Positions 3,798 through 22,115 of a stretch of DNA of 25,467 bases are shown piece by piece. The stretch is from a virus. The notes beneath the pieces were generated by a model. That model saw nothing but the letters and a program-made list of their open reading frames with translations, did no database searches and had not been told where the DNA came from. The number at the start of each line of letters is the position of its first letter. Positions within the stretch are counted from its first letter, which is position 1. The position numbers were made by a program, and so were the translations under genes. The DNA is taken from positions 1 through 25,467 of IMG/VR virus record IMGVR_UViG_3300009075_000016. One strand, given 5' to 3'.

Positions 3798-3833
3798 GTT
3801 AGATGATCCCGTTAACTTAACCCTCATCATGAG
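3798..3833 (+). promoter_or_regulatory. Candidate phage RNA polymerase promoter (SSB cassette)
   Basis: CCGTTAACTTAACCCTC (3809-3825) is repeated exactly at 15526-15542, and both copies have GTTAG 11-12 bp before CCG. TTAACCCTC matches positions -15 to -7 of the phage T3 promoter (AATTAACCCTCACTAAAGGG); by that alignment +1 is near 3832-3833, at the start of AGGGA. The site is 34 bp before the SSB start. CCCTCAT/ATGAGGG (3821-3835) is also a near-perfect palindrome. Confidence 0.7.
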
Positions 3834-3866: not shown

Positions 3867-4379
3867 GTGCAAATTAAAGGTGCTGAACTTTACTTTTGTA
3901 AATTGGACCCGAAGCGTCCTAACGCAAAGTTTAATCGTGAGAATCCTACGTGGGAGGTTCAAATCCGGACTTCTGATCGCGAACAGAAGAAGGACTGGGA
4001 AGCACGTGGTCTGCTCGTGAAGGCTGTTGTCCCTGATGAAGAGGGTGCACAGCCATATTGGCGAGTAAACCTTCGTAAGAAGTCAATCAAGAATAGCGGA
4101 GAGCTGTCTTCGCCTGTTCCTGTTGTTGACGGAAAATTGAAGGAGTTAGATCCTAATACGATTGGAAATGGTAGCATCGGAAACGTCCGTGTCTATCAGT
4201 ATGAATATCCTAAGAAGGACAAGTCCGGCAAAGGCATTGTCAGTGTTCTTATGGGAGTACAGGTCACAAAGCATTTGGTCTATGTACCGAAGCCGCGTGA
4301 TGATGACTTCGAAGAGTCTGACATGGAGACTATTGATCCTCCTGAAGAGGAAGAGGCAGAAGCCGGTAAGTTCGACTAA
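3867..4379 (+). CDS. Single-stranded DNA-binding protein, gp2.5-like
   Basis: Binds single-stranded DNA at the replication fork and probably recruits replisome partners through its tail. The 170-aa protein has a basic, aromatic body (for example YFCKLDPKRPNAKFN, PYWRVNLRKKS, VRVYQYEYPKKDK) compatible with an OB fold. It ends in a long acidic tail (DDDFEESDMETIDPPEEEE) closing with Phe-Asp, reminiscent of the aromatic acidic terminus of T7 gp2.5. The start is a GTG preceded by AAGAGG. It sits alone between a phage-type promoter and a strong terminator, and its codons are more GC-rich than its neighbours', both consistent with high expression. The assignment rests on tail, size and context more than on a sequence signature. 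Confidence 0.8.
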   Translation: MQIKGAELYFCKLDPKRPNAKFNRENPTWEVQIRTSDREQKKDWEARGLLVKAVVPDEEGAQPYWRVNLRKKSIKNSGELSSPVPVVDGKLKELDPNTIGNGSIGNVRVYQYEYPKKDKSGKGIVSVLMGVQVTKHLVYVPKPRDDDFEESDMETIDPPEEEEAEAGKFD

Positions 4380-8860: not shown

Positions 8861-10516
8861 ATGGGAAAGATCGTAGTTAAAAATCAACCCTGCCTAGATC
8901 AGGTTAACTGTGGCTCGCATGATGCAAGACAAATCTATGAAGAAGGTAATTCCTTCTGCTTCTCATGCGAGACATTTTTCCCTGCACAAGAAGGAGAAGT
9001 TGTGACAGAAACAAAGGTATCAAAAAGAGTTTCTCCAGATGATATTAGGGACTATAGAAGCAAAGGTTTAGAAGATAGACAAATCTCAACCAAAGTAATG
9101 GAATTCTTTGGTGTAAAAGTTTCTTTTAATGCTGAAGGCGAAATGGATGCTCATTATTATCCATATGAGCAAGACATTTATAAAGTTAGAAAACTTCCTA
9201 AAGACTTTTACTGGATTGGTAAATCGCATAAACTCTTTGGTCAAGAAAAGTTTAATGCATCTGGAAAGAAATTAGTTATTACTGAGGGTGAAATTGATGC
9301 ATTATCAGTTGCACAAGCTTGGTATGAACGTTATAAACAAGTGTATCCTGTTGTGGCGTTGTCATCGGCGTCGGGAACTAAGGCGCTTCTTGAAAACCGC
9401 GATTGGATAAGATCTTTCGATGAAGTAATTCTTTGTTTAGATGAGGATGAGGCTGGTAAGAAAGCTCTTGAGGAGAGTATTAAGATTATTGGTATTGATA
9501 AGGTAAAGATTACTAAATTACCTTTAAAAGATGCTAATAAAGTACTCACAGAGCAAGGTTGGAAAAGTCTTTTAAAATATATCTATGATGCAGCTCCGTA
9601 TACTCCTACTGGTATTATTAATAAAGAGGAATTATGGAAAGCACTAGAGGCCTATAATAGTATTCCCGCAGTACCTTATCCTCCTTGTTTAAGTGGTGTA
9701 AATCAAAAACTTAAAGGAATGCGTCCAGGTGAAATCACTCTATTTATTTCTGGCACAGGTAGCGGCAAGAGTACGATACTCCGTGAGATCATACTCCACG
9801 TTTTGGCCACAACGACTGATAAGGTTGGAATCGTATCTCTCGAAGAAAGCCCGGCAGAAACAGCAAGAAAGTTAGCTGGAATGGTATTACAGAGAAATCC
9901 TGCAAAAGAAGAGATCCCATTAGAGGAGCTCAAAGTTGGCTTTGATGAAGTCTTTGGGGGAGACCGAGTAATTTTGCTCGATCACCAAGGATCTATGAAT
10001 GACAGTTCAATTGTTGACAAATTGGAGTACATGTGCCTTAGCGGGGCTAAGTATCTCTTTATTGATCATATCACTATGCTTGTATCTGAAGGCGCTGCGG
10101 ACTTAACTGGCAATGAAGCCCATGATAAGGTGATGAATGATTTACTTCGTTTGGTTAAACGCCATCCTGTGTGGATTGGTCTCGTTAGTCATCTTAGGAA
10201 GGCTGGTAGTGGTGCTAAATCTTTCGAAGAAGGGAAATTACCTTCAATTGATGACATTAGAGGAAGCGGTTCGATTAAGCAAGTCAGTTTTGATATTATC
10301 TCTTTCGCTCGTAATCTTACAGCTGCCGATGATAATGAGCGTAATACTATCCTAATGCAGATTCTAAAAGCACGGCAAACAGGACTTACAGGTCGTGTAA
10401 ATAATGTTAAGTATTCATATGACACAGGTAGACTTTCTGCATGTGACGGCATGGATGATGCAGACGCTTTCGAAAAGGTCGAAGTTCCAACACTCCATAC
10501 AAAAGGATTCGATTAA
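8861..10516 (+). CDS. Bifunctional primase-helicase, T7 gp4-like
   Basis: Unwinds DNA and makes primers at the fork. Domain order: N-terminal zinc site (Cys11, Cys17, then FCFSC Cys33 and Cys36), with the first cysteine pair three residues wider than in T7 gp4; TOPRIM primase with TEGEIDAL (Glu142) and LCLDEDEAG (Asp194 onwards); RecA-type helicase with Walker A GTGSGKST (Lys303), Walker B YLFIDH (Asp402), a VSHLRKAG segment, and a late GSGSIKQVSFD block. 551 aa against 566 in T7. AAGGAG lies just upstream. The stop overlaps the next start (TAATG). All catalytic residues I can check are present. Confidence 0.95.
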   Translation: MGKIVVKNQPCLDQVNCGSHDARQIYEEGNSFCFSCETFFPAQEGEVVTETKVSKRVSPDDIRDYRSKGLEDRQISTKVMEFFGVKVSFNAEGEMDAHYYPYEQDIYKVRKLPKDFYWIGKSHKLFGQEKFNASGKKLVITEGEIDALSVAQAWYERYKQVYPVVALSSASGTKALLENRDWIRSFDEVILCLDEDEAGKKALEESIKIIGIDKVKITKLPLKDANKVLTEQGWKSLLKYIYDAAPYTPTGIINKEELWKALEAYNSIPAVPYPPCLSGVNQKLKGMRPGEITLFISGTGSGKSTILREIILHVLATTTDKVGIVSLEESPAETARKLAGMVLQRNPAKEEIPLEELKVGFDEVFGGDRVILLDHQGSMNDSSIVDKLEYMCLSGAKYLFIDHITMLVSEGAADLTGNEAHDKVMNDLLRLVKRHPVWIGLVSHLRKAGSGAKSFEEGKLPSIDDIRGSGSIKQVSFDIISFARNLTAADDNERNTILMQILKARQTGLTGRVNNVKYSYDTGRLSACDGMDDADAFEKVEVPTLHTKGFD

Positions 10517-15355: not shown

Positions 15356-15392
15356 CACAATTTGTTTAATTAAAAAGCCTATCCCAAGTGAC

Positions 15393-15488
15393 TTCCCAGG
15401 GGCCGCAGGTGAGACGCGCACCTGCCCCATGGCTGCCCTATACCGGGCCGTTCTGCGCGTGCCTGGCAATGCCTCTGGTTGCCTGGTG
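15393..15488 (+). other. GC-rich structured island in intergenic region
   Basis: About 95 bp whose GC content is far above the AT-rich surroundings. GCAGGTG (15405-15411) pairs perfectly with CACCTGC (15419-15425) around a 7-nt loop, extendable with GGG/CCC. GGCAA (15465-15469) pairs with TTGCC (15479-15483), and CCAGG pairs with either of two CCTGG copies. No credible gene fits: the frame crossing it also crosses the promoter. Possible structured RNA, origin element or acquired fragment. The remaining bases of 15356-15610 hold the promoter and a leader hairpin. Confidence 0.5.
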
Positions 15489-15515
15489 GATCGTTTTGAA
15501 GGAGCTCAAGGGTGG

Positions 15516-15549
15516 GTTAGTGAAACCGTTAACTTAACCCTCTTTTCTG
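15516..15549 (+). promoter_or_regulatory. Candidate phage RNA polymerase promoter (15611 cassette)
   Basis: A second exact copy of CCGTTAACTTAACCCTC (15526-15542), again with GTTAG upstream (15516-15520). Aligning TTAACCCTC with -15 to -7 of the T3 promoter puts +1 on G15549. The predicted leader contains a hairpin, GTCAC (15561-15565) with GTGAC (15576-15580). GGGTTA (15514-15519) can also pair with TAACCC (15535-15540). Confidence 0.7.
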
Positions 15550-15610
15550 TCAAGCGTATAGTCACTACGCGAAAAGTGACATTTTGTTTAATACATGTAA
15601 GGATGTTATA

Positions 15611-16180
15611 ATGTCGTCTGAAATTCGTCAAAAGTTTGAAGTCAATGGTCAGTTCTTCGATAGCAAGGCGGAAGCACAGGACTTCCTCCGCACACCGAAG
15701 ATCCAGACTGCACTTCTGGCAGTTACCGCCGGTAAGACCGAGCTGACTGAATGGCTGCTCGAGAATCGTGAGACTGTCGAGATGAGCTTTGAGGTCGGTA
15801 AGATTCGTCGCGTGACGAAGGGTGAGAAGAAGAAGCTTGAGAAGGCGCTTGAGGCCCTCGTTGAGCATTTCTCGCATGAGCCGAAGATTGCGTTCCTGGT
15901 CGATAACGTTGATGCGATCAAGGACAGCTTTGGTTGGCCGGGTGTGAAGCGTATGAGCGATGAGGAGAAGGCTGCTCTCGCGCGTAACACTCTGGTTGCT
16001 GCGACGGAAGGTCGTGAAGACGTTGCTGAGTGGATCATCGCGAACAAGGAAGCTATCCTTGCTGCGTATGCTGCTGGCATCGAGAAGCGTGAAGTTAGCC
16101 CCGCTGCTACAGAGGGTCTGGCTGCTTATCGCGCCAAGAAGGCTGCTGAGAAGGCTGCTAAGGAAGCCGCTTCTGGCTGA
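15611..16180 (+). CDS. Highly codon-biased protein with an internal duplication, 189 aa
   Basis: Family not recognised. The ATG at 15611 has AAGGA (15599-15603) at good spacing. Two copies of one module are visible: ALLAVTAGKTELTEWLLENR then ETVEMSFEVGKIRR (about 35-68), and TLVAATEGREDVAEWIIANK then EAILAAYAAGIEKR (about 127-160), sharing A-T-x-G-x5-E-W-[LI]2-x-N-[RK]-E and a later G-x2-[KR]. The end is Ala/Lys-rich helix (AAYRAKKAAEKAAKEAASG). Codons are strikingly GC-richer and more uniform than neighbours', and a phage-type promoter precedes it, so it is probably very abundant. The basic alanine-rich tail suggests nucleic-acid binding or a scaffold, but this is inference. Confidence 0.85.
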   Translation: MSSEIRQKFEVNGQFFDSKAEAQDFLRTPKIQTALLAVTAGKTELTEWLLENRETVEMSFEVGKIRRVTKGEKKKLEKALEALVEHFSHEPKIAFLVDNVDAIKDSFGWPGVKRMSDEEKAALARNTLVAATEGREDVAEWIIANKEAILAAYAAGIEKREVSPAATEGLAAYRAKKAAEKAAKEAASG

Positions 16181-16185
16181 TCTTA

Positions 16186-16543
16186 ATTAAGCTACTATCC
16201 TCCGGTTCTAACCGAAGATACTTACTGTGTTTTCCCGAGCAGGTAGCAAATCGGGATTTGATTTAAGCCTTGCTATACACTGATACGGAAGATTGAGAAG
16301 TAATCTTAAGGCACCTCATACCCTTAAAGATGAAGGAAGGTCTACGTAAGTAAATATACAAGCTGCTGAGATGTCAGCTCAAGGCTACTTTTTCTAAGGG
16401 CTAGCGGTACGGCCAAAGAATCTATACTCTCACAAGAGGTGAGAATTAGAATCTAATGTACCGCGCAATCAAAAACGACTTGGTTAGGTCTCTCCTTCCC
16501 TGATCAAGTTGTTTTATGCCTCCTTAAACGGAGGCATTTTTTT
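16186..16543 (+). ncRNA. Candidate structured RNA of about 350 nt, class unknown
   Basis: No gene fits between the 15611 gene and 16566, but perfect helices abound. TCCCGA (16233-16238) pairs with TCGGGA (16251-16256), and GTAGC in its loop (16243-16247) can pair with GCTAC (16191-16195), a possible pseudoknot. GCCTT (16267-16271)/AAGGC (16308-16312) encloses AAGATT (16289-16294)/AATCTT (16302-16307). GCGGTAC (16404-16410)/GTACCGC (16458-16464) encloses TCTCAC (16428-16433)/GTGAGA (16439-16444). An 11-bp helix 16474-16484/16503-16513 has two G-U pairs. It ends at a terminator. It does not resemble tmRNA, RNase P RNA or 6S RNA as I know them. Probably made from the 15516 promoter as the 3' part of the message. 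Confidence 0.65.
16518..16543 (+). terminator. Rho-independent terminator after structured RNA
   Basis: GCCTCC (16518-16523) and GGAGGC (16530-16535) form a perfect stem with a 6-nt loop, followed by A and seven T (16537-16543). Confidence 0.9.
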
Positions 16544-16565
16544 GCAAACCTTAACAGGAAGAATC

Positions 16566-16754
16566 ATGAGCAAGAGTAATCGAATTGTAAAGAAAGATCA
16601 AGAAGAAATTAGAAGAATTATTGTTGATCTTTTGAATATACGTAAAGCAGGAAAAAATCTTTTAGGTACAGCATACCTTGATTTGTTATATGCAGACGCA
16701 AGTATTCTTTCAGATTTACTTGGCAATTGTAATCATCGTTACGGGAGAGATTAA
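16566..16754 (+). CDS. Small basic helical protein, 62 aa
   Basis: The ATG at 16566 follows AGGAAG; frames starting earlier would include the terminator. Product begins MSKSNRIVKKDQEEIRRII and is mostly helical (LLGTAYLDLLYADASILSDLL). No family recognised. Overlaps the next ATG at its stop (TAATG). Confidence 0.65.
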   Translation: MSKSNRIVKKDQEEIRRIIVDLLNIRKAGKNLLGTAYLDLLYADASILSDLLGNCNHRYGRD

Positions 16755-21929: not shown

Positions 21930-22115
21930 ATGGCTAAAGATGAACTGAAGGAGATGTTCCTGCAGGCGGCAGTGTATCGTTCTGATGCACTGCTGTCTCA
22001 GAAACGCGCCCAAGAGGTTGAGTATGAGATACTCAAATACTTGGCGGACCACCGGATGTATGAGATGCTTCAGTTGGATATGAAGCGTTTCAAGGCATAC
22101 GTCTTCGGAGGTTGA
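21930..22115 (+). CDS. Small helical protein, 61 aa
   Basis: The ATG at 21930 follows a near-ideal AGGAGG. Charged and helical (MAKDELKEMFLQAAVYRSDA, SQKRAQEVEYEILKYLADHR). No family recognised. It is the last gene before the 1-kb non-coding RNA region, and its stop lies inside a TTGACA hexamer (22112-22117). Confidence 0.72.
   Translation: MAKDELKEMFLQAAVYRSDALLSQKRAQEVEYEILKYLADHRMYEMLQLDMKRFKAYVFGG

Follow-up and report, generated by a model that had tools for sequence, protein, structure and literature searches.

Within a virus contig from IMG/VR (25,467 bases, the whole of which is here called the window), the stretch at positions 16181-16545 is most plausibly the 3' untranslated region (UTR), possibly processed, of a message that would carry a single gene, termed gene 15611, and pseudoknots at both ends. 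Comparison with related virus loci supports the presence of pseudoknots in this stretch, hereafter the tail. A further type of pseudoknot, PK(a), has no copy in the window but recurs in other tails and between the genes of other phages. Judging from the sequences, we give about an even chance to the proposal that the tail is a pseudoknot-rich 3' UTR whose pseudoknots protect or process the message in cis.

The RNA polymerase encoded in the window is T7-like, with phage DSS3_VP1 as its best full-length named match (35% identical). Four tRNA genes are also present on the contig, as are replication genes, a DNA ligase and a class II-like ribonucleotide reductase. Elsewhere in the window, ~1 kb at 22118-23180 holds no convincing gene and is a candidate large structured RNA. 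Folding energy is low at the 5' end of this region (150-base windows give z -4.2 at 22051 and z -3.8 at 22351), patches of it resemble positions 9202-9765 of the related locus L020, and an Rfam scan of the region gave no match. The stretch at 526-750, before the RNA polymerase gene, has a folding energy z of -5.3 and includes a pseudoknot candidate at 609-650.

Gene 15611 and its leader

The tail had been described in an earlier note as a structured RNA with its own terminator, lying in a gene-free region behind the most codon-biased gene. Gene 15611 does have the highest codon bias among 12 genes compared (ENC 37.6 vs 43.9-51.3), and the tail is without a plausible gene. The terminator is also present, but it closes the message of the upstream gene as well, and a search for two types of promoter-like site found neither at the start of the stretch, which leaves a separate RNA gene unsupported. 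The lack of such a site and the shared terminator make a 3' UTR the simpler reading.

The putative start of the message is a promoter-like motif, CGTTAACTTAACCC, with exact copies in the window at 3810 and 15527 only (Table 1). Because of these copies, and because most relatives have a shorter core, TTNANTTAACCC, immediately before the gene, CGTTAACTTAACCC is probably a phage promoter. The site at 15527 and the terminator at 16543 would thus delimit a message of ~1 kb. The other copy (3810-3823) lies upstream of a gene at 3867-4379 whose product looks like a single-stranded DNA-binding protein, and no leader pseudoknot was noticed there.

Relatives of gene 15611 were found in 18 virus loci by protein search. 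Its product has repeated W-L/I helical units, a lysine/alanine-rich end and an AlphaFold model with a mean pLDDT of 82, and searches returned no PHROG at E 0.001, no confident Pfam family and no confident PDB fold match.

Table 1. Features of the proposed gene 15611 message (window positions)
Feature	Positions	Strand	Details
Promoter-like motif CGTTAACTTAACCC	15527-15540	+	presumed site for the phage's T7-like RNA polymerase
Leader H-type pseudoknot	15554-15580	+	GCGU-AUA-GUCACU-ACGC-GAAA-AGUGAC; from shuffles and leader alignment
Gene 15611, most codon-biased gene	15611-16180	+	189 aa; ENC 37.6, GC3 0.58
Module A pseudoknot	16191-16256	+	GCUAC 16191-16195/GUAGC 16243-16247; UCCCGA 16233-16238/UCGGGA 16251-16256
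Small hairpin CGGU/ACCG	16203-16214	+	nested in UAUC/GAUA 16196-16199/16217-16220
Core closed by long-range helix	16266-16386	+	16266-16272/16380-16386, 7 bp
Invariant block ACTGATACGGAAG	16279-16291	+	identical in L002
Invariant block CTACGTAAGTAAATATAC	16342-16359	+	identical in L002; diverged form CGTACGTAAATG in L043
Hairpin AGCUG/CAGCU, loop CUGAGAUGU	16361-16379	+	GUCUG/CAGAC in L002, two compensatory changes
Module C H-type pseudoknot	16399-16464	+	kept in L039, L043, L049, L064
Hairpin with CUCCUU loop	16472-16515	+	loop complementary to Shine-Dalgarno sequence
Intrinsic terminator	16516-16543	+	8-bp stem, six-base loop, T run; conserved in L020

The predicted leader pseudoknot scores lower than all 40 of its dinucleotide shuffles, and among 23 leaders compared, 13 beat all 40. 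In a structural hand alignment of 14 selected leaders, 133 of 136 cells are paired, and each position shows several types of pair. The leader pseudoknot covaries and is more broadly conserved than the RNA of the tail. MAFFT mis-set the 3' strands of both this pseudoknot and module C of the tail, so hand or trimmed alignments were used, which biases the results towards structure. The leader motif GGTATCTTATATGATA or near variants were seen in L006, L007, L008, L010, L014, L129 and L130; in relatives, motifs of this type are repeated upstream of several genes, and in L129 and L130 they follow GCGGAAAA.

The leader of T4 gene 32 carries a pseudoknot that gp32 binds, and here too a phage leader holds one of the H type, at 15554-15580 and in most relatives. 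By analogy, the gene 15611 product, with its lysine-rich C-terminal tail, might bind the pseudoknots of its own message. Such autoregulation would suit a leader pseudoknot that is conserved together with the gene, and a single gene with pseudoknots at both ends. However, pseudoknots at both message ends are themselves a difference from T4, kinship of the product with gp32 was not found, and Pfam and PDB fold searches did not reveal an RNA-binding fold. PK(a), moreover, occurs in named phages that lack a tblastn relative of the gene, and the one named phage that gene 15611 matched has a short leader and tail without a pseudoknot. We regard autoregulation as quite unlikely.

Structure of the tail and its relatives

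All of the pairings listed in the earlier note exist: GCCTT/AAGGC (16267-16271/16308-16312), AAGATT/AATCTT (16289-16294/16302-16307), GCGGTAC/GTACCGC (16404-16410/16458-16464), 16428-16433/16439-16444, an 11-bp G-U-tolerant stem (16472-16482/16505-16515), the terminator stem with its T run (16516-16523/16530-16537), and a loop GTAGC (16243-16247) complementary to GCTAC (16191-16195). Perfect stems of at least 6 bp number 8 in 16181-16466, compared with 3.1 in mononucleotide shuffles (8 was reached in 4 of 200). The folding energy of 16181-16545 gives a z of -3.98, which is due to the last two hairpins, since z is ordinary when these are left out (-1.41 for 16190-16466; -1.57 in L002). Single-sequence folding therefore does not establish structure, and support for a structured RNA comes from relatives.

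The whole RNA follows the gene in one other contig (loci L002, L039 and L020) at 71% identity, and the gene 15611 relative there has 78% protein identity. A two-sequence model from the window and L002 matched L043 (E 6.6e-13) and L049 (E 0.0014), and L064 was added by a structure-based scan. Two tail domains are kept in L043 and the 3' domain in L049 and L064. The order in L043 is swapped, with the 3' domain first and the 5' pseudoknot later, followed by the contig end, which indicates that tail domains behave as modules. Relatives L003, L011, L012 and L036 are almost without a tail, and the tail is thus dispensable.

The tail RNA was not matched in whole-record searches of 19 other virus records, BLAST against phages gave no DNA-level match, and an exact-motif scan of viral contigs with two conserved blocks returned the L002 contig only. 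Several candidates were rejected. Six further stretches from a gapped-pattern scan look like coding sequence and gave zero in the model search; a module C pattern in L126 is a chance match inside a protein-coding gene; and 3-mismatch matches in 2 of 299 host genomes (from the phylum to which the L133-bearing MAG belongs) are near chance.

Both pairings of module A are kept in L002 and L043, in nearly invariant form and so without covariation, and an alternative partner for the loop exists (TTGCTAT, 16270-16276). The small hairpin and the helix around it also pair in L002, with one compensatory change each. The helix that closes the core changes from AGCCUUG/CAAGGCU in the window to GACCUCA/UGAGGUC in L002; in an unedited alignment, two of the five aligned pairs differ on both sides. 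This helix competes with the 16267/16308 stem. Neither that stem nor 16289/16302 is kept in L002, and these two members of the proposed nested set, although present, are probably not native. The two sequences are suggestive in favouring the long-range helix over both stems. Three doubly changed helices were seen between the window and L002, compared with 1.24 in simulations, but 12% of simulations reach three, and this two-sequence covariation is not decisive.

Module C is laid out as GGC-UA-GCGGUAC-GGCC, a hairpin-bearing loop and AAU-GUACCGC. Stem 1 pairs GGC (16399-16401) with GCC (16412-16414), stem 2 pairs GCGGUAC (16404-16410) with GUACCGC (16458-16464), and the inner hairpin (16428-16433/16439-16444) lies in the long third loop. 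Three pairs of stem 2 are changed on both sides, and the covariation score of 0.467 (0.121 when shuffled) was reached in none of 500 shuffles, for four distinct sequences in a trimmed alignment. Covariation in related phages had been proposed as a check on the RNA, and the module C pairing is indeed kept with changed letters in L049 and L064. The suspected pseudoknot is thus supported, and at least two are present (16191-16256 and 16399-16464). The compensatory changes in module C span diverged genomes, which speaks against a tail with no function beyond termination and conserved through recent descent. That reading would fit the weakness of the energy signal once the terminal hairpins are removed and the presence of the whole RNA in two genomes only, and we find it extremely improbable.

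An Rfam scan, also suggested in the earlier note, found no family in the stretch at the covariance-model gathering threshold (release 15), in agreement with the view that the RNA is not RNase P, tmRNA or 6S RNA. Seven permissive matches within 15356-16700 all lie below threshold, and RyhB (E 0.036), nse_sRNA and Phe_leader were rejected as below-threshold terminator look-alikes. In a scan of 14 related loci, tRNAs alone reach threshold, and permissive mode on five related loci gave one chance-level match, inside the gene.

GOLLD and ROOL are structured RNAs, some of them carried by phages near tRNA genes. An independent RNA gene of this kind, with its own promoter and a function in trans, would account for the invariant blocks and complex fold of the tail, and a tRNA gene lies 0.7 kb downstream. 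GOLLD and ROOL are far larger, however, and their family models were not matched here. Given also the lack of any Rfam match and of a promoter-like site at the 5' edge, and that every copy of the RNA found follows the gene, we consider an independent RNA gene improbable.

The 3' end of the tail, including the CUCCUU hairpin, is its best conserved piece (16469-16543, 85.5% identity with L020 over 76 columns), and CUCCUU-loop hairpins occur in 8 of 26 tails compared with 1.1 in shuffles (maximum 6 in 200 shuffles). Both observations would be expected of a small RNA released from the 3' UTR to act in trans, with a CUCCUU loop that pairs with host or phage Shine-Dalgarno sequences and a U-tailed terminator that could bind Hfq. 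As in Hfq-dependent small RNAs derived from 3' UTRs, a hairpin and an intrinsic terminator with a U tail (16516-16543) end the message. Here, in contrast, there is a predicted pseudoknot array, which a small RNA would leave unexplained, and the resemblance to RyhB is largely terminator-based. A small RNA of this type seems unlikely.

PK(a), a recurrent intergenic pseudoknot

A simple pseudoknot finder returned 43 pseudoknots in 19 tails and 10-19 in each of ten shuffles, an excess of about three times. The commonest is PK(a), GAC-CU-GAGCA-U-GUC-nUAAAC-UGCUC, with one to five copies per tail and several in L049, L025 and L064. A set of 23 copies from this phage group shows covariation in stem 2, and in the same phages PK(a) also adjoins other genes, one of them a holin gene.

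PK(a) was located in named phages of the Roseobacter, Lactobacillus, Staphylococcus and Bacteroides groups through single-copy BLAST, for which the matches are short, with some weak E-values (up to 4), and each rests on structure plus place. Lactobacillus phage phiEF-1.1 is among the carriers. It follows the class II ribonucleotide reductase gene in Siovirus roseophages, and precedes primase or tRNA-Val in Burzaovirus crAss-like phages. In Lactobacillus and Staphylococcus phages, it lies between the minor head and scaffold/major capsid genes, and it was found at the same capsid place in prophage-like regions (L. salivarius and S. aureus plasmids). Schitoviridae phages DSS3phi2, EE36phi1 and ort11 carry it as well, in ort11 at 2 bases before tRNA-Gln. 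PK(a) sits both upstream and downstream of genes.

Over 21 sequences, which span unrelated phages, both stems covary: 7 of 8 pairs are changed on both sides and 0 of 500 shuffles reach the score; this set was partly picked by structure, which favours pairing, and shuffle controls on structure-selected sets overstate significance. Stem 1 variants include GAC/GUC, GUC/GAC, CAC/GUG, GAG/CUC and CAG/CUG. PK(a) had no Rfam 15 match in the related loci scanned, and no description of it was found in the open-access literature. The recurrent pseudoknot, as GACCUGAGCAUGUCnUUAAACUGCUC, is intergenic in unrelated phages and plasmids (L135-L149 at ~1501-1530; L152-L154 at ~1801-1834), two of them with prophage-like capsid regions. 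In a crAss-like phage (L138, 1455-1530), two adjacent PK(a) copies were seen, the stems of the upstream copy being changed to GAG/CUC and UAGCA/UGCUA.

The topology of PK(a) is that of ToxI, an H-type pseudoknot that is processed out of tandem repeats and has a known phage counterpart, pseudo-ToxI (PMC5086642, PMC3475682). PK(a), though not the window, thus shares with these an H-type pseudoknot unit that is multi-copy, as in L049, L025 and L064, and can be phage-encoded. The RNA might by analogy be a decoy against defence, for example a mimic of the type III antitoxin ToxI as in phage phiTE. PK(a) copies are not regular tandem repeats, however, and occupy fixed intergenic sites beside genes for capsid proteins, the reductase or tRNAs. 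Around the three plasmid matches inspected, the annotated genes include no type III toxin, and no ToxN-like gene is named among the annotated neighbours of PK(a), many of which are hypothetical, so that this absence is by annotation only. We judge a decoy to be highly improbable.

A possible role in message stability

The preferred reading, in which the tail acts in cis, can be put as a mechanism. In the folded tail, two or more H-type pseudoknots would surround a helical core, with the CUCCUU hairpin and the terminator coming after them. The pseudoknots would physically obstruct ribonucleases and might also serve as processing boundaries. Blocked decay would make the gene 15611 message long-lived and abundant, with a stable 3' fragment left as a by-product. 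We infer the transcript ends as well as the effects on nucleases and stability.

A role in stability or processing is favoured by the placement of PK(a) at gene junctions and by the strong codon bias of gene 15611. A precedent points the same way: in vitro, bacterial RNase J1 is stopped by a folded viral RNA that acts against Xrn1 as well (PMC5760640). The junctions at which PK(a) lies may be ones that call for unequal RNA levels in the genes on either side. As in flavivirus exoribonuclease-resistant RNAs, a folded, pseudoknot-containing RNA is proposed to stop exonucleases (PMC5760640), but those RNAs are defined by a ring-like fold, whereas the pseudoknots here are minimal H-type and their blocking is putative. 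Tobacco mosaic virus likewise has pseudoknots in a row, in the upstream pseudoknot domain of its 3' UTR (PMC4683447). That virus is a plant RNA virus; here the virus is a DNA phage, the message ends in an intrinsic terminator, and no tRNA-like end was found.

Several findings weaken the case for a roadblock in cis. The invariant primary blocks exceed the needs of a mere roadblock, the whole RNA is found in one relative only and several relatives are almost without a tail, PK(a) occurs on either side of genes and has no copy in the window, and z is only -1.4 without the last two hairpins.

More broadly, and as a tentative proposal that we hold to be possible but doubtful, PK(a) may represent a class of minimal H-type pseudoknots, as yet uncatalogued, that tailed phages share and carry between their genes as nuclease roadblocks or processing boundaries that set message levels segment by segment. 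The message in the window, with a pseudoknot near its start and more in its tail, would then be an elaborate example. The products of adjacent phage genes, such as portal and major capsid proteins, are needed in very unequal quantities, often from one transcript. If the proposal is true, PK(a) and pseudoknot-rich tails would offer a testable answer to how neighbouring genes achieve unequal output, and nuclease-resistant RNAs would be a feature of phages, beyond RNA viruses.
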